In this document: positions 5,512 to 16,135 of the stretch, piece after piece
Layout of the letters: the number at the start of each line of letters is the position of its first letter
Numbering within the stretch: position 1 is the stretch's first letter
Source of the DNA: Acidihalobacter aeolianus
GTDB taxonomy: Bacteria > Pseudomonadota > Gammaproteobacteria > DSM-5130 > Acidihalobacteraceae
Reading direction: 5' to 3'
Assembly: GCF_001753165.1 (NCBI RefSeq)
Contig: NZ_CP017448.1
Span: forward strand, 638,462 to 702,461
Length of the DNA: 64,000 bases
Position numbers and translations under genes: made by a program
Notes under the pieces: model-generated
What the model was told of the DNA's origin: nothing
The model's input: the letters and a program-made list of their open reading frames with translations, nothing else
Database searches by the model: none

Positions 5512-7167
<1,656 letters not shown>

Positions 7168-7386: not shown

Positions 7387-7851
7387 ATGGTCGAGCAAGC
7401 CTGGGTGATTCCCAAAACCTTGCAGCAGGTGCGGATGTGGATTCATCCGGAGGGGCAGGTGCTGGCCGGAATATATCTAATGTCGGAAAGGCCGGGTGAA
7501 GAGGCTGCAGAATTGCCTGTAAGCTTGATGAATCAACCCCAGCCGTTTTTCCCTTGCCAATGCCATGGCGGGGAATTGCGGTTTTACAACAAAAATGCAC
7601 TGGTGCGCATGGAATACGAAGCGCCGGCAGAATATGCATTACCTGCCGAAGTATCGTTGCGCGGTGAGTTTGGACTGATGGATGGGTCCGTATTTGTCGG
7701 TACCATACGGGAGAATTTGCCTCCCGACCGAGGCCGACTGCTAGATTATCTAAATGTGCACGTCGACCGCTTCGTCCGCATTTTTCTAGACGACGGCTCA
7801 GTAGCCTTGATCAACAAGGCCTATGTCGTGCGAGCTATACCCACAGATTGA
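7387..7851 (+). CDS. Uncharacterised protein upstream of HEAT-kinase and PilT genes
   Basis: 154 aa, no family recognised with certainty. The ATG at 7387 is chosen because GGAGCGGTT lies just upstream; the frame is open further upstream but has no other ATG with a ribosome site. The protein is soluble, with no signal peptide or membrane segment. The C-terminal half (about 95-150: GSVFVGTIRENLPPDRGRLL, then FVRIFLDDGSVALINKAYV) alternates short beta-strand-like segments and could be a small beta-barrel. It has a CQCHGGE stretch near residue 55. It is the first gene of a same-strand unit with the kinase and two PilT ATPases (20 bp gap to the kinase), so a role in the same signalling or motility process is inferred. 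Confidence 0.7.
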   Translation: MVEQAWVIPKTLQQVRMWIHPEGQVLAGIYLMSERPGEEAAELPVSLMNQPQPFFPCQCHGGELRFYNKNALVRMEYEAPAEYALPAEVSLRGEFGLMDGSVFVGTIRENLPPDRGRLLDYLNVHVDRFVRIFLDDGSVALINKAYVVRAIPTD

Positions 7852-7870
7852 GCACCGGCCGAAAATATCT

Positions 7871-10276
7871 ATGAGTCTGTTTCGAGATTTCCGCGCCGAA
7901 CGACGTATTGCGCAAATGCTGGCCGTCAAGCAGATCGGCTCAGTCGAGGGCGTGCAGGCGCTTGAACGTTTACGCGAATGCTCGGGTGAGGCCATACCTC
8001 GCTTGGTGAGGCTTCTGACAGATGGTGACGGGGTCGGCGGCAATAAAACAAAACTGATGCAGGTGCTCACGCGGCTGTTGGATGACGATACGCTGCCCAC
8101 TTTCTATCGCATCCTGACTGCAGGCGAGCCACGGTTGTCGCAGGCGGTGGTCGAGGTGTTGCGTACGGGGCGTGGTTACGATCCCAACCGAATGCTGGAT
8201 TTTCTATCCGATCCCTCGGTGCCCAAGTCCGCGCTACTGGAAATTCTTTCGGCCCAGGGCAAGGCACTCGATGCGCATGGCTTGCTTCGTCAGATCAGCC
8301 ACCTCGATCCCAGCGAGAGGAATGTTGCATTCCGGTTGTTGGCCGAGATTGCCGAGCCTGAGCTGATTCCCGAACTGGTCAACCGTGCCAGTGCGAAGGA
8401 TCTGCAAATCCGCCAGGGTGTAGCGCGCATCCTCGGGAAGTTCGATCACCCAAAGGCACATGAAGCGCTTCGCCGTATGCTCGACGACCCGGGCAAGACG
8501 GTCAGACAGCTGGCTCTGAATGCACTTGCCGCCTATCCAGGCGCGCTCGATCTCGAAATCCTGTTTCATTTGTTGCACGACAGCGATATCGGCATTCAGG
8601 CTTGTGCGGTTGATGCCATCGTGCAAATGCGTGACCCGCAGACCCTGGAATACCTGATCGATGTATTACGCGACGAATCCGAATACGTCAGGCGTGCCGG
8701 CGTGGAAATTCTCAATGAGATCGGCGATACACACTCGATCAAGACCTTGCTGCAATCCATCAAGGACGACGATTGGTGGGTGCGTGCGCGTGCCGCAGAC
8801 GCATTGGCACGAATCGGCGGCAGCCGTGTGATCCAGGCGGTGGTATCCCTGTTGCGCGACGATGACGAATTCGTACGCCGCGCAGCCGTCGAGATCATGA
8901 ACTCGATCAAGGACGAGGCCTCGTTCCGTCACCTGGTCGACGCGTTGGCGGATACCGACTGGTGGGTGCGCGAGCGGGCAGTTGATGCGCTCGCCAAGCT
9001 AGGCAACAAGGCTGCATTGCCAGCACTTCTGCCCTTGCTCGAACGTGATGGGTCTACAGCGGTAGCGGTGCTCCGCGCATTGTCGCAACTCGGCGGTCCC
9101 GAGCAGATCGAGGCGGTGACAGCGCAGCTGCGTCGACCCGAGCCCGCGGTGCGCAGTGAGGCCATGCTTGCATTGGTGGAGCTGGCCGATGCGGAACGAG
9201 CCCCGGAAATTCAAGCCCTGCTAGAAACGGCAGCGCAAAGCGCGCCAGAGGAAGAGGTGCGGGATCTGGCTCGCGATTGTGCCAGCCGATTGACTGATCG
9301 CTACGCCGCCTTGCGAAATGGCAGCACGCGAGCAGCGGATGAGACTTCTGGATCCTTGGCCAGCAACCCTTCGGCGAGCACCTCCGATGCCAGTAGCATG
9401 ATACCCGCTGTTGCCGGCCCGCCGATCAAACTTAAGCTGCTGCGTGCCGGGGAGTTGCTGGGTGATCGTTACCGGCATATTCGCCGGGTGGGCCGGGGTG
9501 CCTTCGGTACGGTGACCTTGGCCGACGATCTGCAACGCGGTGAACAAGTGATTCTCAAGTTCCTGCATCCGCAAATGGCGGTGGATGAAAATATGGTCCG
9601 CCGCTTCCAGCGTGAGCATCACTTCGCCAAGCGTATCGAGCACCATAACGTCATCCGCATCTATGATTTCTTCATGATGGGCGGTTTGTACGTGATCAGC
9701 ATGGAATATTTCCCTTCCACTGCACTTTCCGCCGAGGTCAAGGCCCGTGTGCCATTAAGTTTGGACCGTGCCATGCACATCGCACATGAGGTCGCCGCCG
9801 GCATGACTGCAGCGCATGCCATCGGGATTGTTCACCGAGATCTCAAGCCCGGGAACATCCTCATCAATGAACACAATTTGGTTAAAATCGTGGATTTCGG
9901 TGTTGCCGCTGCGGTGGACAGTGCCGATACGCGGCTCACGCGCACCGGCCTGCTGGTCGGCACGCCGCGCTACATGGCTCCAGAGCAGGTGCTGGGCAAG
10001 GCTATCGACGAACGCACCGATATTTACAGCTTGGGTGTCATCCTCTACGAAATGCTAGCCGGCACGGCGCCCTTCAGCGGCGATGACAATGTCGCTGTGA
10101 TGTATCAGCACGTCCAAGGTGGCGCGAAACCGTTGCACGAACAGAACCCAGAAATTTCCCGTACCCTGAGCGCATTGGTAGCCCGCATGATGGCAGTAGA
10201 GCCCGAACAGCGTTTCCGCAGCATGCGCGAGGTCAGGCATACACTCGAACCCTTCATGCAGCCGCATCGCATGTGA
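7871..10276 (+). CDS. HEAT-repeat Ser/Thr protein kinase
   Basis: 801 aa from the ATG at 7871; an in-frame ATG at 7823 would overlap the preceding gene and is less likely. Residues about 60-480 are tandem helical HEAT repeats with recurring DDDWWVRARAADALARIG-like units. Residues about 530-795 are a Hanks-type kinase. Within it are the Gly loop GRGAFG near 540, the VILK lysine, the catalytic loop HRDLKPGN near 655, DFG near 675, the APE motif and the D-x-YSLG segment. All catalytic residues are present, so it should be active. There is no transmembrane segment, so it is cytoplasmic. It sits immediately upstream of two PilT-type ATPase genes (18 bp), suggesting phosphorylation-based control of pilus retraction or a related surface process (inference). 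Confidence 0.9.
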   Translation: MSLFRDFRAERRIAQMLAVKQIGSVEGVQALERLRECSGEAIPRLVRLLTDGDGVGGNKTKLMQVLTRLLDDDTLPTFYRILTAGEPRLSQAVVEVLRTGRGYDPNRMLDFLSDPSVPKSALLEILSAQGKALDAHGLLRQISHLDPSERNVAFRLLAEIAEPELIPELVNRASAKDLQIRQGVARILGKFDHPKAHEALRRMLDDPGKTVRQLALNALAAYPGALDLEILFHLLHDSDIGIQACAVDAIVQMRDPQTLEYLIDVLRDESEYVRRAGVEILNEIGDTHSIKTLLQSIKDDDWWVRARAADALARIGGSRVIQAVVSLLRDDDEFVRRAAVEIMNSIKDEASFRHLVDALADTDWWVRERAVDALAKLGNKAALPALLPLLERDGSTAVAVLRALSQLGGPEQIEAVTAQLRRPEPAVRSEAMLALVELADAERAPEIQALLETAAQSAPEEEVRDLARDCASRLTDRYAALRNGSTRAADETSGSLASNPSASTSDASSMIPAVAGPPIKLKLLRAGELLGDRYRHIRRVGRGAFGTVTLADDLQRGEQVILKFLHPQMAVDENMVRRFQREHHFAKRIEHHNVIRIYDFFMMGGLYVISMEYFPSTALSAEVKARVPLSLDRAMHIAHEVAAGMTAAHAIGIVHRDLKPGNILINEHNLVKIVDFGVAAAVDSADTRLTRTGLLVGTPRYMAPEQVLGKAIDERTDIYSLGVILYEMLAGTAPFSGDDNVAVMYQHVQGGAKPLHEQNPEISRTLSALVARMMAVEPEQRFRSMREVRHTLEPFMQPHRM

Positions 10277-10294
10277 CGAACGGCAGGGAATCGC

Positions 10295-11389
10295 ATGGCG
10301 CGCATCGATGCGTTCTTGAAACTGGGTCGCGAGCAAGGCTGTTCCGATGTGCACTTGGCGGTGGGTGTCCCCCCCATGCTGCGTATGAATGGCGAAATCA
10401 TGCCGATCCGTTTTCGCGAGCTTGGGGACCGTGAGCTACTGGGTTACCTTTTTGAGATCCTCAGCGAGAATCTCAAGGCGCGCTATCGCAAGGGTCAGGA
10501 CCTCGATTTTTCATATATGGCCGAGGGTGTCGGGCGCTTTCGTGCCAACGTGTTCCGCAAGGCTGGTGGAATCGGCGCTACCTTCCGTTACATCCCTTCC
10601 AAGGTCCCCAGTCTGAACGAACTGGGTCTGCCGCCTGTGGTGCATAGGTTGGCCGAGCACCGCCAAGGCATGTTGCTGGTCACCGGGTCGACTGGAACGG
10701 GCAAATCCACCACGTTGGCCGCCATGCTGGATCTGATCAACGATCGTGAAGCGGTGAATATACTCACGCTTGAAGATCCGATCGAATTTATCCATGAAAG
10801 CAAGCGTGCGCAGATCATTCAGCGTGAGATCGGCACACACGTGCGCAGTTTTACCGAAGGCTTGAGGTCCGCGCTGCGCGAGGATCCGGACGTGATCATG
10901 GTCGGCGAGTTGCGCGACGCAGAGTCGATCATGATGGCGATGGTCGCAGCCGAGACCGGACACTTTGTCCTCGCCACGCTACATACCACGACCGCGGTCA
11001 AGACGATCGACCGCATTATCGACGCCCTACCTGCCGAGCAGCGCGAACAGGGTAAGAATTTTCTCGCAACCAATCTGCGTGGAGTGGTCTCGCAGGTACT
11101 GGTGCGTTCGGCCGAGGGCGGTGGACGTCGTGCGGTTGTCGAGACGCTGTCGATGACGCCTGCAGTCGCGCAAATGCTGCTGAGCGATAAGACCCATCAG
11201 ATCCCTTCGGCGATGCAAACCGGGCGCGAGGCGGGCATGCAGTTGCTCGATCAGGCGCTGCTCGACGGCATTCAGCGCAAGTTGATCGATCCCGATGATG
11301 CCTATCTGTATGCTCAGGATAAAAAATCGTTCCAGCGCTTCGTCACGGACGCTTCTCTGTTGCCACGTGTCGATCTAGCTGGGGGATGA
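10295..11389 (+). CDS. PilT/PilU-type twitching motility ATPase (first copy)
   Basis: 364-aa hexameric AAA-like ATPase of the type IV pilus retraction family. The N-terminal PAS-like part has the SDVHLAVGVPPMLRMNGE signature (residues 16-33). Walker A is GSTGTGKST near 131. The Asp box is LEDPIEFIH near 157, Walker B is around DVIMVGELRD, and the His box is TGHFVLATLHT near 228. The AIRNLIRE-like C-terminal PilT motif is not evident, which leans toward PilU or a PilT paralogue. It is 4 nt from the next pilT-like gene and 18 bp behind the kinase. No pilin or pilB genes lie in the window. Confidence 0.9.
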   Translation: MARIDAFLKLGREQGCSDVHLAVGVPPMLRMNGEIMPIRFRELGDRELLGYLFEILSENLKARYRKGQDLDFSYMAEGVGRFRANVFRKAGGIGATFRYIPSKVPSLNELGLPPVVHRLAEHRQGMLLVTGSTGTGKSTTLAAMLDLINDREAVNILTLEDPIEFIHESKRAQIIQREIGTHVRSFTEGLRSALREDPDVIMVGELRDAESIMMAMVAAETGHFVLATLHTTTAVKTIDRIIDALPAEQREQGKNFLATNLRGVVSQVLVRSAEGGGRRAVVETLSMTPAVAQMLLSDKTHQIPSAMQTGREAGMQLLDQALLDGIQRKLIDPDDAYLYAQDKKSFQRFVTDASLLPRVDLAGG

Positions 11390-11393
11390 TGTC

Positions 11394-12467
11394 ATGAGTC
11401 GAGTCGACCGCTGGCTGGAAGGGTTATTGGAGCGCGATGGTTCTGATATGCACCTGATCGCAGGTCAGTTGCCGCGCATGCGTCTGGATGGCGAGCTGAC
11501 TGCCGTCGGCGAAGAAACGCTGCCTGCGGGAGAGGTCGAGGAGTTGGCGGGCGAGTTGCTGGGCACTTCTCTGCGCGAACGCTTTGAACGGGATGACCAT
11601 GTTGATTTCGCCTATCAGATGGCCAGCAAGGGGCGGTTCCGCGTGAACCTGTTCCGCCATCTGGGCGGTCTGGGGCTCGTGATGCGTGCAATACCCCAGG
11701 TGCCGCAGACCCTCGACGCACTCGGTTTGCCACCGGTGCTGCGTAGTTTATGCCAGCACAAGCAAGGGCTGGTGCTGGTCACGGGTAAGACCGGCTCCGG
11801 TAAATCCACCACGCTGGCCGCAATGGTAGATTTTATCAACACCAACCGCCGCGGCCATATTCTGACTATCGAGGATCCGATCGAATTCATGCACCCGCGC
11901 AAGCGCTGCCTGGTCAGTCAGCGCGAAGTGGGCGAGCACACACCGGGTTTCGCGGCGGCGTTGCGTTCCGCGCTGCGTGAAGACCCTGACGTGATCCTGG
12001 TTGGCGAGTTGCGCGATCATGAAACCATCGCGCTTGCCGTCACTGCTGCGGAGACGGGCATCCTGGTGTTGGGAACGTTGCATACGCGTCGTGCGGATCT
12101 TACCGTCGAGCGCCTGATCAATGTGTTTCCTGCCAGTAAGCAGGCCCAGGTGCGGATCATGCTATCCACCTCGCTGCGCGGTGTCGTGGCCCAGCAGTTG
12201 CTCAGACGGGCAGAGGGACATGGTCGCGCCGCTGCGATCGAGGTTCTGGTGAATACGCCCGCCGTGTCCAGCTTGATCCGAGAAGGCAAAGTGGGACAGC
12301 TCGAAACCGCCATTCAAAGCGGTGGATTGGTGGGTATGCAGACCATGGATGGGGATTTGCGGCGCCTCATCGACGCCGGGGTGATCAGAGGGCATGAGGC
12401 GTACGTGCACAGCACGCACAAGGAGTCTTTCCATGCCTATCTCGCGGACGGCCAGGTCTCGCGCTAG
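11394..12467 (+). CDS. PilT/PilU-type twitching motility ATPase (second copy)
   Basis: 357 aa, clearly paralogous to the gene 4 nt upstream. It has the SDMHLIAGQLPRMRLDGE signature at residues 17-34, Walker A GKTGSGKST near 131, IEDPIEFMH, DVILVGELRDHET and GILVLGTLHTRRAD. One of the pair may act as the PilT-like motor and the other as a PilU-like partner, or both may form a specialised ATPase for this kinase-linked system. The gene converges on the anti-sigma gene with 34 bp between stops and no obvious terminator. Confidence 0.9.
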   Translation: MSRVDRWLEGLLERDGSDMHLIAGQLPRMRLDGELTAVGEETLPAGEVEELAGELLGTSLRERFERDDHVDFAYQMASKGRFRVNLFRHLGGLGLVMRAIPQVPQTLDALGLPPVLRSLCQHKQGLVLVTGKTGSGKSTTLAAMVDFINTNRRGHILTIEDPIEFMHPRKRCLVSQREVGEHTPGFAAALRSALREDPDVILVGELRDHETIALAVTAAETGILVLGTLHTRRADLTVERLINVFPASKQAQVRIMLSTSLRGVVAQQLLRRAEGHGRAAAIEVLVNTPAVSSLIREGKVGQLETAIQSGGLVGMQTMDGDLRRLIDAGVIRGHEAYVHSTHKESFHAYLADGQVSR

Positions 12468-12501: not shown

Positions 12502-13248
12502 TCAGAGATTGACGTACATCCAGCCCTGGCGCAGCCGATGCACGACCTCCTCAACGGCTGAAGGGGCAACGCGAACGTGTCGGATCAGGTCAACAGGTAC
12601 GCCCGCTGCCTCAAGATTGTGCAAGGTGATGCCACAGGCGACGAAGTGCAGATTCGGGTATTTGCGCATCATGTCGCGAACCTGTTTAGCAAATCCGGAG
12701 TGCGCGTTTGCCTCAAGCAGTTTGAGGCCGCCGGCATTGGCTACGACCTCGACCTGAATGCCATCGTCGCCGCCTTTATGCAGCAGATAGCTGGCCTGCT
12801 GCAATGTGCCGGCGAATTTTGCTGGGTTGTCGGTGGCGACATGCAGCAACACGCGTGGCGGTTCGCCGGGACCGATATCGGCTGTTTTAAGCTGAATGGC
12901 GCCGAGAGAGGCTAAGTGATCGTTCAATAGCGTCATGGCATCGTCGCGCGCATGGAGCAGCCAGCCACCTGCAAAGCTCAGCACCATCAGCATCAGCACG
13001 GCACAGCAGGCGGCCAGGGATCGACGTTGGCCGAAGCCGCTCGCTCGGCGATTGGCGCTGGGCGGCGGTGGAGGGACGAAATAGGCCTGCTGGACCAGAT
13101 CCTTGACGCGCCGGAGTTCGCAGACCTGATTGCGCAGGTCCGTATCGACGTACATGCCTTCGAGCAGTTCGGCGCGGTCGTCTACGTCGAGTTCGTTGTC
13201 GACATAGGCGTGCAAGCGAGAGTCGTCACGTAATCCCGTGTTCATCAC
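12502..13248 (-). CDS. Anti-sigma factor with periplasmic DsrE-like domain
   Basis: 248 aa, coupled to the ECF sigma gene by a 4-nt overlap (ATGA). Residues 1-60 resemble the cytoplasmic anti-sigma domain (RLHAYVDNELD, then helices). A Cys-Cys zinc site is not evident, only Cys43. A Pro run at 59-63 leads into one transmembrane helix at about 77-98. Residues about 131-248 form a DsrE/YchN-like fold placed in the periplasm, with Cys205 in HFVACGITL. This part aligns by eye with the secreted DsrE-like protein encoded divergently at 14153 (VEVVANAGGLKLL against IEIVAFGPGLRLL; shared lone Cys; matching C-terminal helix). The fusion suggests a sensor that frees the sigma factor on a periplasmic cue (inference). 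Confidence 0.82.
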   Translation of the reverse strand: MMNTGLRDDSRLHAYVDNELDVDDRAELLEGMYVDTDLRNQVCELRRVKDLVQQAYFVPPPPPSANRRASGFGQRRSLAACCAVLMLMVLSFAGGWLLHARDDAMTLLNDHLASLGAIQLKTADIGPGEPPRVLLHVATDNPAKFAGTLQQASYLLHKGGDDGIQVEVVANAGGLKLLEANAHSGFAKQVRDMMRKYPNLHFVACGITLHNLEAAGVPVDLIRHVRVAPSAVEEVVHRLRQGWMYVNL

Positions 13249-13808
13249 TTAACCCTTCGCAATGAGGTGCGGATTGTCGTTTGCGGTTGTTGTTGCACAT
13301 CCGCCAGTGAGACCAGCAGCGCCTGCCGCGCACGGCTGAGTCGGCTCATGACGGTACCAATTGGTATATCCAATATTTGTGCCACTTCTGCATATGCGAA
13401 GCCTTTGAGGTCGACCAGGGTGATAACCTCGCGTTGGCCCAGCGGTAGGGTTTTGATCGCACCGCGTACCCGGTCCACCACCTGTTGTCGCTGGTTGACG
13501 GTTTCCGGGCATTCGTCGCACGGAAACGCCTCTTCGTCGAGCGGTTGGTCGGGGCGTTGACGACGCAGGTGAGTGCGCCAGCAGTTATGCAGGATCGCGT
13601 ACAGCCAGCTTTGCAGGCGTTCGGCTTCACGTAGCTGGCCGGCCTTTTGTAATCCCTTCGCGATGGCCTCCTGTGCTAGATCGTCAGCCAGAGCAGGGTC
13701 GCAGCACCACGCGTATGCCATGCGATACAGGCGCGGACGCTCATCTGCGATGCGCTTTTTGAATTGTTTACTCAAGGTGATGCGATCGAACATGCCTATT
13801 TCATCCAT
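13245..13808 (-). CDS. ECF-type RNA polymerase sigma factor
   Basis: 187 aa; directs RNA polymerase to a small regulon in response to an envelope signal. Region 2 has the DDLAQEAIAKGLQK core-binding helix near residue 42 and the RLQSWLYAILHN promoter-melting segment. Region 4 has LPLGQREVITLVDLKGFAYAEVAQ, then a clear helix-turn-helix ending IPIGTVMSRLSRARQALL. The start may be ATG 13808 or the internal ATG five codons later. The anti-sigma gene overlaps its 3' end, the usual ECF arrangement. The divergent DsrE-like and porin genes are plausible targets. Confidence 0.95.
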   Translation of the reverse strand: MDEIGMFDRITLSKQFKKRIADERPRLYRMAYAWCCDPALADDLAQEAIAKGLQKAGQLREAERLQSWLYAILHNCWRTHLRRQRPDQPLDEEAFPCDECPETVNQRQQVVDRVRGAIKTLPLGQREVITLVDLKGFAYAEVAQILDIPIGTVMSRLSRARQALLVSLADVQQQPQTTIRTSLRRVK

Positions 13809-14152
13809 AGCAGTTTAGCCCGCTCCCATGACATGAAAGACGCGAAGTATAGACGAGTTATTCCAAGCGCGGCGCGGTTAGGCATGCGCCAAATCGTCGC
13901 GCGGCCTGAGAAGAAAGAAATATAAGTACATGTTGATATAATAAATAATAATTTAATATTATTCTGCTTTGTTAACATATAACTATTTGATTTATATTTA
14001 TAAAATAAATTTGTTAATTTTTCTTTTCAGTGTATGGAATAAGATTTTAATCGGGCGCATCTTGTTGCATTGAGGGAACGCCTCAGGCCGTGCGCCTACG
14101 CCGTGTGCGGCCCCATAACCGAGATAAATACGCCTTACAGAGGGAGATCACC
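13809..14152. other. AT-rich divergent intergenic region
   Basis: 344 bp between the sigma factor gene and the secreted DsrE-like gene. The stretch 13918-14045 is very AT-rich compared with the GC-rich surroundings, with several TATAAT-like hexamers (for example near 13935) and no credible coding frame. It must hold the promoters for both directions. I could not pick an ECF-type -35/-10 pair with confidence. Confidence 0.6.
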
Positions 14153-14623
14153 ATGATAAGTCGGTTCGTCAGACGGGCGCTGCTCGCGCTGTGTTCGCTG
14201 GGTCTTCTGGCTGCGGGGACTGCCTGGGCAGAAGTGCCTATGCCGCCGATCGTAGAGAAGCCCTTCGCCACCCATCACATCGTGCTGCAGATCAGCGATC
14301 CCAACCCCATGAAGCAGACGCTGGTGCTCAATGTGGCCGCCAACATGGCGCGATATTACGGCCCGGATAAAGTGGACATCGAGATCGTGGCTTTTGGTCC
14401 TGGTCTACGCCTGTTGCTGAACAACAACGTCAATAGGAAGCGGATTATCGAACTGGCCAAGAACTACGGGGTTAAGTTCGACGCCTGCCATAACACGCTG
14501 ATGCACTTCAAGAAGATGTTGGGATATTTGCCCAAGCTCAATCCGGAAGCGGTTGTGGTGCCGGCCGGTGCAGTGCGCATCGTTGACCTCGTGCAACACG
14601 GTTATACGCTCATAAAGCCATAA
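14153..14623 (+). CDS. Secreted DsrE-like protein
   Basis: 156 aa from the ATG at 14153, which follows AGAGGGAGATCACC. Residues 1-26 are a signal peptide ending AWA, so the mature protein is periplasmic. The mature part is a DsrE/YchN-like domain: HIVLQISDPNPMKQTLVLN, then VDIEIVAFGPGLRLLL, then a lone conserved-looking Cys112 in KFDACHNTL. It is a paralogue of the extracytoplasmic domain of the anti-sigma factor encoded on the other side of the AT-rich gap. DsrE-fold proteins are known for sulfur relay, but function here is not established. It is followed 75 bp later by a porin gene on the same strand. Confidence 0.85.
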   Translation: MISRFVRRALLALCSLGLLAAGTAWAEVPMPPIVEKPFATHHIVLQISDPNPMKQTLVLNVAANMARYYGPDKVDIEIVAFGPGLRLLLNNNVNRKRIIELAKNYGVKFDACHNTLMHFKKMLGYLPKLNPEAVVVPAGAVRIVDLVQHGYTLIKP

Positions 14624-14698
14624 TTTGACTGTGGCGGCTTTAGGGTTCGCTAAGCAATCGAAGCGATCGAAGAAAACTCATATCCAGGGGAAGTGTCC

Positions 14699-16135
14699 AT
14701 GAAAAATGATTCGAAAGCCGGCTTCAAGAAAGGCGTGTTGGCTGCTGCGGTCGCCGCGTTGGCCGGTATGAGCGTCCAGTCGGCAGAGGCCGCCAACTGG
14801 CTTCAACTCTATAACACCTCGCCCCCCGGCGTTGCCAAGCCAGTGAAAGTATGGGGCTTTATCCAGCCCGATTACGCGACCACCAGCGGGAATACGGTCA
14901 GCGGTTTGCAGGGCCCGCCATCGGTCAGGGCCTTTGACGGTGCCGTGCCGAATTTCAATCTGATCGGGCCGAATCTCAGCTCGACCAATACCTTCAACCT
15001 GCTGCGCGGCCGTATCGGCGTTCGCGGCACGCTGTCGCCATTGGACAACAAGCTCGACTATTTCTTCCTGACTGAGTTCGGCAACAACGCCATGACCCAC
15101 TTTGCTGGGGATCATCCGGTGGTGTCCGACGCCTTCGTGACCTGGAATGTGGACCCTCAGCTGGTGCGTTTCTCGCTGGGGCTGCAGAAGGTGCCGGGTG
15201 GCTGGGAGTCGCGCGTGGGCATCCCGGTACTCCCGTTCGTGAACTACACCACGGCGACCCTGCAGAACACGCTGGAGCGGTTCATCAGCCCGAGCACGGC
15301 AGTGACCTCGGCAGGTAACGGCGGCTATCAATTCATCCCATCCAGCAGCAATGTTACCGGCTTCGGATCGTTTCGCGATGTCGGTCTTAAGGTGTTCAAC
15401 TGGTTCGACCGTGGTCCCTGGGAGTATGCCTATGCCTTCATGGTAGGCAATGGCGGGCCGATCACCTCGACCAACAACAACAACGGCATGGACACCTACG
15501 GCATGCTGCGTGCCAGCTATGTGTTTAGCGGCAAGGGCCCTTACCGTAACGATGCCGGCGTATGGGTGTGGTTCCACAACGGCCAGCGCAAGATCGATCA
15601 GATCGGTACCTACAAGCTCAACCGTTGGGGTTTCGGTGGTGAATACGGGCGGCATCAGCGCCAGGCGGGCGGTTACATCATGCACGCCGGCTATATGCAG
15701 GCGAGCGGCTGGATTCTTGCGCCGGCGCCGTTCCAGTACGACGCGTCCGTAGCCAGCCAGTACACCGGCCCGGCCCTGGGTGGATACAACAACCTGACCC
15801 AGTGGACCATCTATCCCGGCAGCGACAACAAGGCCTGGGGTGCGTACATCCAGGGCGGCTACTACGTCACCCACAACATCCAGTTGCAACTGCGCTACGA
15901 CCAGTACAACCGCCTGACCAACAACGCGGCGTTGGAGCGTGACTTCAAGACCTGGACGGTGGGTGCGCAGTACTTCCTGACGCCGGGTACCCGCCTTAGT
16001 CTGAACTATGCGATCCAGAAACTGGATGTGCCGCACCCGGGCGCGATCACGAATCCGGTGCAGCGCAACAATGCTCAGCAGATCGCCAACTCGATGGGTA
16101 ACCGCCTCGATCTCGAACTGACGGCGGTGTTCTAA
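14699..16135 (+). CDS. Outer membrane porin-like beta-barrel protein
   Basis: 478 aa. The ATG at 14699 is preferred over GTG 14693 because the AGGGGA ribosome site is correctly spaced from it. A signal peptide is present (residues 1-31, ending AEA). The mature protein is rich in alternating aromatic/polar beta strands, with many Tyr, Asn and Gly residues (for example WTVGAQYFLTPGTRLSLNYA). It ends in Phe (LDLELTAVF), the outer membrane insertion signal. It resembles phosphate-selective or OprO/P-like porins only in general architecture; the substrate is unknown. It is likely cotranscribed with the secreted DsrE-like gene and is followed by a strong terminator. Confidence 0.85.
   Translation: MKNDSKAGFKKGVLAAAVAALAGMSVQSAEAANWLQLYNTSPPGVAKPVKVWGFIQPDYATTSGNTVSGLQGPPSVRAFDGAVPNFNLIGPNLSSTNTFNLLRGRIGVRGTLSPLDNKLDYFFLTEFGNNAMTHFAGDHPVVSDAFVTWNVDPQLVRFSLGLQKVPGGWESRVGIPVLPFVNYTTATLQNTLERFISPSTAVTSAGNGGYQFIPSSSNVTGFGSFRDVGLKVFNWFDRGPWEYAYAFMVGNGGPITSTNNNNGMDTYGMLRASYVFSGKGPYRNDAGVWVWFHNGQRKIDQIGTYKLNRWGFGGEYGRHQRQAGGYIMHAGYMQASGWILAPAPFQYDASVASQYTGPALGGYNNLTQWTIYPGSDNKAWGAYIQGGYYVTHNIQLQLRYDQYNRLTNNAALERDFKTWTVGAQYFLTPGTRLSLNYAIQKLDVPHPGAITNPVQRNNAQQIANSMGNRLDLELTAVF

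Follow-up and report, generated by a model that had tools for sequence, protein, structure and literature searches.

The stretch of DNA analysed here (64,000 nucleotides, referred to as the window) belongs to the genome of Acidihalobacter aeolianus DSM 14174, which oxidises iron and sulfur. We take Acidihalobacter prosperus DSM 14174 to be the strain that is now named A. aeolianus. Under the former name, it was described as a halotolerant acidophile that oxidises iron and sulfur and carries the genes soxAX, soxB and soxYZ (PMC5255921, PMC6396713). The preliminary description of the window had claimed an ECF sigma/anti-sigma module with DsrE domains on both sides, and the reading frames and domain matches confirm four genes in this layout, in which a sigma/anti-sigma operon diverges from a unit encoding a secreted DsrE protein and a porin-like protein (Table 1). 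For the secreted DsrE protein, a longer frame starting at GTG 14090 is less likely than the ATG start that we adopted.

Table 1. Genes, invariant cysteine codons and predicted promoters of the module, in window coordinates
Feature	Position	Strand	Remarks
Anti-sigma factor (predicted), 248 aa	12502-13248	-	Paired with ECF sigma gene; DsrE C-terminus
ECF sigma factor, 187 aa	13245-13808	-	4-nt overlap with anti-sigma gene
Secreted DsrE protein, 156 aa	14153-14623	+	ATG start; PF02635
Outer-membrane porin-like protein, 480 aa	14693-16135	+	Probable start ATG 14699
Cys205 codon, invariant cysteine of the anti-sigma (putative sensor) DsrE domain	12634-12636	-	
Cys112 codon, invariant cysteine of the secreted DsrE protein	14486-14488	+	
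Predicted promoter of the sigma/anti-sigma operon, GGAATAACTCGTCTATACTTCGCGTC	13839-13864	-	Motif
Predicted promoter of the dsrE-porin unit, GGAATAAGATTTTAATCGGGCGCATC	14036-14061	+	Motif

Of the sigma-70 regions, the sigma factor contains just 2 and 4, the domain content of the ECF group, with matches to PF04542 (47.5 bits) and PF08281 (57.7 bits), both above their cut-offs, and to TIGR02937 (76 bits). The product of the paired gene has the architecture of a membrane anti-sigma factor, the AlphaFold model (pLDDT 84.7) presenting an N-terminal helical domain (residues ~9-55), a single membrane span inside a long helix (76-114) and then a DsrE fold (~130-247). From this arrangement we infer that the protein binds and inhibits its sigma factor. 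Among 67 relatives, PF02635 (the DsrE family) was matched at E <=0.01 in 27, zf-HC2 in 18 and RseA_N in 7, and the window's own protein gave no PF02635 match. Identity as a zinc-binding anti-sigma (ZAS) protein was considered and dropped because there is no CxxC and hence no HxxxCxxC motif; His13 and Cys43 are present, the latter kept in 46 of 63 relatives, and zf-HC2 scores below its cut-off in the window protein.

The preliminary description had also proposed that the anti-sigma factor ends in a periplasmic DsrE-like domain resembling the divergently encoded secreted protein, and named non-homology of the two beforehand as the result that would speak against it. Non-homology is excluded by blastp (26% identity over 116 residues, E 5e-5) and by profile-profile comparison with hhalign (probability 99.55, E 2.3e-23), in which Cys205 is aligned to Cys112. 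The secreted protein, which has an N-terminal signal peptide ending near Ala26, belongs to the DsrE family on its PF02635 score (24.2 bits versus a cut-off of 22.7), and the anti-sigma C-terminus is placed there by the hhalign result together with its fold (Foldseek match to 1l1s, E 2.8e-8). Structure prediction of the two single domains, suggested in the preliminary description as a check, gave the same fold (pLDDT 94.7 for the secreted DsrE): for both models the top solved structures in Foldseek are 1l1s and 2pd2, followed by other DsrE/DsrF-family entries, with TusBCD and DsrEFH also matched by the secreted protein, and profile searches by sequence gave the same solved relatives. Chance likeness of the two domains is thus ruled out by the profile comparison and the fold search.

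The two cysteines, which had been described as lying in a comparable place, occupy an equivalent structural position in the AlphaFold models, at the end of a strand preceding a helix. Cys205 is kept in all 62 anti-sigma relatives compared, at overall identities of 20-40%, and is also invariant in A1 and A3, while Cys112 is kept in 81/81 secreted DsrE proteins and is the sole cysteine in 69 of them. In a tree that included the four secreted DsrE paralogues of the window genome, one branch separates the putative sensor domains from the secreted proteins (support 99/92; short alignment of 123 columns, with long branches meeting), as expected if the anti-sigma-DsrE fusion had a single origin. DsrE-family proteins are known sulfur carriers, and by analogy both proteins would transfer sulfur through this cysteine.

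In order to see how far the locus is conserved, as the preliminary description had recommended, we gathered 80 named loci using the secreted DsrE alignment as query, making 81 with the window; a contig search with the anti-sigma protein alone gave no matches, probably because its diverged sequence yields poor patterns. Searching for relatives, we recovered the anti-sigma-DsrE protein from several genera, with the same four-gene layout in its surroundings. The named loci are nearly all from Gammaproteobacteria, including Sedimenticola, Halothiobacillus, Thiolapillus, Thiomicrospira and Thiomicrorhabdus (strains of the last two genera, L159 and L160, carry the module). The pair is conserved across genomes, so that the second result named beforehand as speaking against the proposal is excluded as well. 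The complete arrangement of sigma and anti-sigma-DsrE genes diverging from secreted DsrE and porin genes is retained by 62 of the 81 loci, mainly in sulfur-oxidising Gammaproteobacteria, some genomes having several anti-sigma-DsrE paralogues. A phylum sample added one positive genome, from the same class, to which nearly all the matches listed belong.

Spaced word pair counts over 66 intergenic regions revealed one motif, GGAAT-N17-CGTC, in both directions. The form GGAAT-N16-18-CRTC is directed towards dsrE in 55 of the 66 loci (mean 0.9 in Markov shuffles) and towards the sigma gene in 51 (mean 0.5), and in relaxed form it faces both ways in 45. The predicted promoter motif is GGAATAA-N14/15-CGTC. 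Where dsrE-porin units lie apart from any sigma gene, 6 of the 15 loci keep the motif, some loci being truncated by contig ends. This placement suggests that the motif is bound by the sigma factor of the module, an assignment made by position, since some genomes have several anti-sigma-DsrE paralogues.

Across the window genome there are 33 matches to GGAATA-N15-17-CRTC, against 8 for the reversed control. Nine of them begin with GGAATAA, and six of these nine precede genes in the right direction: the sigma gene, dsrE, the soxXYZ cluster (SoxX 96 bits, SoxY 161, SoxZ 127, by NCBIfam/Pfam), soxB (695 bits), a PF04143 YeeE/TsuA-type transporter (198 bits) and another secreted PF02635 protein. 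Because the motif precedes the last four as well as the module's own units, thiosulfate oxidation is the output that we predict. The pattern GGAATAA-N14/15-CGTC has 27 sites in seven other genomes, compared with 7 for the reversed control; behind these sites are soxB (5), soxX (4, identified by likeness), sigma genes (7) and secreted DsrE genes (2), with two sites facing away from a sigma gene and 7 without an assigned gene. The porin, which the preliminary description had regarded as the output, follows dsrE in 80 of the 81 loci and lies in a unit behind an ECF-type promoter motif, so that this part of the proposal stands, but it is not the only or main output, given the sox, transporter and second DsrE genes that share the motif. 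The window porin matches PF13609 weakly, and among its relatives the matches are to Porin_4 (E down to 9e-12) or Porin_O_P (E down to 1e-10); a profile search with it found no solved relative.

The link to sulfur oxidation extends to the distribution of the module. Among 369 genomes of the class, of which 66 have a full-length anti-sigma-DsrE protein and 150 have soxB, soxB is present in 65 of the 66 anti-sigma-DsrE genomes, compared with 85 of the 303 genomes that have no full-length protein of this kind (Fisher p 5e-29). The motif is found in the region upstream of soxB (about 800-900 nt) in 19 of 56 module-positive versus 1 of 34 module-negative loci (p 4.5e-4), with wrong-strand occurrences in 4 and 3 loci, respectively. 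Both p values are indicative, since they are uncorrected for shared ancestry. For soxY, the motif lies upstream in 9 of 30 module-positive loci versus 2 of 30 on the wrong strand, again with shared ancestry uncorrected. The remaining 37 of the 56 module-positive soxB loci have no motif within 800-900 nt upstream, and there soxB may lie inside operons or be under paralogous sigma factors. Physical linkage is also seen: in G159 the sigma and anti-sigma genes are followed by soxX, Y, Z, A and B in that order (SoxX, SoxZ and SoxA identified by inspection), with a divergent dsrE-porin unit, in G269 the anti-sigma gene, soxY and soxB are found at a spacing matching G159, so that the pair adjoins sox genes in two genomes, and in G170 the sox genes are ~2 kb away from the module.

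The sequences show the gene order, the homology of the DsrE domains, the invariance of the cysteines, the motif and its position at sox genes, the co-occurrence with soxB and the sox linkage. The connection between module, motif and sox genes draws on several independent counts among these, and it suggests a conserved four-gene switch that turns on thiosulfate oxidation genes in many sulfur-oxidising bacteria. We propose that, without reduced sulfur, the sigma factor would be kept membrane-bound by the anti-sigma N-terminus. Once the periplasm contains sulfane sulfur, from thiosulfate or otherwise, Cys205 would become charged (persulfidated), directly or via a carrier, and the charged DsrE domain would alter its shape or partner, upon which the anti-sigma factor would release the sigma factor or be proteolysed. 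The freed sigma factor would then transcribe from GGAATAA-N14/15-CRTC promoters, the proposed targets being its own operon and the genes behind the other five GGAATAA sites of the window genome, with the porin gene included in the dsrE unit. The parts of this scheme differ in strength. Control of the sox genes by the sigma factor of the module is, in our view, likely, whereas sensing of sulfane sulfur through Cys205 is only slightly favoured; this sensing chemistry draws on what is known of the DsrE family together with the invariance of the cysteine, and persulfidation of Cys205 in particular draws on the first of these. The complete statement, that the switch senses periplasmic sulfane sulfur via the DsrE cysteine and induces thiosulfate oxidation, we regard as evenly balanced. 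The secreted DsrE protein is probably a periplasmic sulfur carrier, serving as donor to the sensor or as a feedback drain; any of the roles considered for it in the preliminary description (competing with the sensor domain, modifying it or reporting to it) may apply. More tentatively, the two DsrE proteins could form a relay, in which the secreted one takes up periplasmic sulfane sulfur and passes it to the anti-sigma domain, freeing the sigma factor for the Sox system, and the pathway intermediate would then itself be the signal.

The single exposed cysteine is open to oxidation as well as to persulfidation, and the sequence data would fit a module that controls sox but whose DsrE domain senses redox state or oxidants, through sulfenylation or a disulfide at Cys205, instead of sulfane sulfur. 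We consider this unlikely, as proteins of the DsrE family are sulfur carriers and the partner gene codes for a second one; moreover, the genes predicted as targets serve to oxidise or transport sulfur, and none of the assigned sites belongs to an antioxidant gene. Still less probable is a response of the RseA kind to the state of the envelope or porin, with the DsrE domain as a scaffold or oligomerisation part and the sox link reflecting a shared lifestyle. The RseA_N matches in seven relatives and the porin gene, the most constant partner of the module, would agree with it, but a mere scaffold has no need of a cysteine that stays invariant at such low overall identity, and the motif precedes sox genes.

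A comparably small probability attaches to the view that the sigma factor controls its own operon and the dsrE-porin unit only, the sox motif being used by a different ECF sigma factor that prefers the same sequence. The positional nature of the link between sigma factor and motif, and the several paralogous sigma/anti-sigma pairs of some genomes, leave room for such a division. Against it, one and the same motif precedes the sigma gene and the sox genes within individual genomes, it hardly occurs before soxB in genomes that lack the module (the single case in 34 given above), and in G159 the sox genes come directly behind the sigma/anti-sigma pair. Sox control by the sigma factor of the module, in response to periplasmic sulfane sulfur, is the best-supported reading.

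How regulators sense external sulfur was described as poorly understood in a 2024 study (PMC11582611), and the sox regulator described in PMC11582611 and PMC10451225 is a cytoplasmic repressor. For many sulfur-oxidising Gammaproteobacteria, the present results predict a different layer of sox control, whose sensor would lie in the periplasm, the compartment of thiosulfate oxidation. This prediction reduces to one residue (Cys205), one promoter motif and a short list of targets, all of which are testable.

In a search of open-licence papers we found no described system combining an anti-sigma/ECF pair with DsrE and no sigma-factor control of sox, in line with the preliminary description, which knew of no system with this layout. 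Within that literature, the module is a known type of ECF switch for which we found neither the sensor domain nor the set of targets described. The anti-sigma factor has weak matches to RseA_N and MucA, and it shares with the RseA/MucA type the single membrane span and an N-terminal helical region, here predicted to bind sigma, but on the periplasmic side it has a DsrE domain, in which one cysteine is invariant. DsrEFH, TusBCD and YchN are cytoplasmic sulfur carriers of the same fold and family as both DsrE domains of the module; unlike them, one DsrE here is secreted and the other is part of an anti-sigma factor, as its putative sensor. The closest ECF parallel is RpoE1/RpoE4 (ECF26) of Sinorhizobium meliloti, which responds to sulfite (PMC3511301); in both systems an ECF sigma factor and its anti-sigma partner respond to an inorganic sulfur compound and govern the oxidation of that compound, which for our module is a prediction. 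The RpoE1/RpoE4 targets are the sulfite oxidase gene sorT and cytochrome and azurin genes, and neither a DsrE domain nor a secreted DsrE is mentioned in the part of that report considered here (PMC3511301). A sulfite system of this kind would be expected to fall in the ECF26 sequence group and to have sorT beside the sigma gene; the neighbours seen in the module are dsrE-porin, plus sox genes in G159 and G269. In Hyphomicrobium denitrificans, sox is controlled by the SoxR repressor with the YeeE-like SoxT1B (PMC11582611, PMC10451225). The two systems would have in common the control of sox in response to sulfane sulfur (predicted for the module) and the presence of a YeeE-like membrane protein in one and of a YeeE-type transporter gene in the other. 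However, SoxR/SoxT1B consists of a cytoplasmic ArsR-type repressor and a transporter-like signal unit, whereas the regulator here is not of the ArsR type but an ECF sigma factor, with a predicted periplasmic DsrE sensor.

At six loci of the sigma/anti-sigma module (L110, L122, L133, L136, L137 and L141), the usual secreted dsrE is separated from the sigma gene by an additional, diverged dsrE gene (55-59 bits), which gives three DsrE domains per module. At another locus, L336, two tandem sigma/anti-sigma-DsrE pairs adjoin a single dsrE-porin unit, and several genomes carry more than one anti-sigma-DsrE paralogue. A paralogue of the secreted DsrE, 53% identical to the window's copy and without a Pfam match, is encoded at L175 with no sigma gene nearby.

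In the window, a strongly AT-rich tract in GC-rich surroundings lies immediately upstream of the predicted dsrE promoter. At lower coordinates than the module, an 817-aa protein that combines HEAT repeats (PF13646) with a Ser/Thr protein kinase domain (PF00069) is followed by two T2SSE-family ATPases, which look like a PilT/PilU pair.

Coordinates of the features described
Feature	Location	Position	Strand
HEAT-kinase and ATPase genes	window	7823-12467	+
AT-rich tract	window	13905-14045	
Secreted DsrE paralogue	L175 (G000:C1, about 1206 kb)	5965-6465	
Tandem pairs	L336 (G114:C22)	8059-10945
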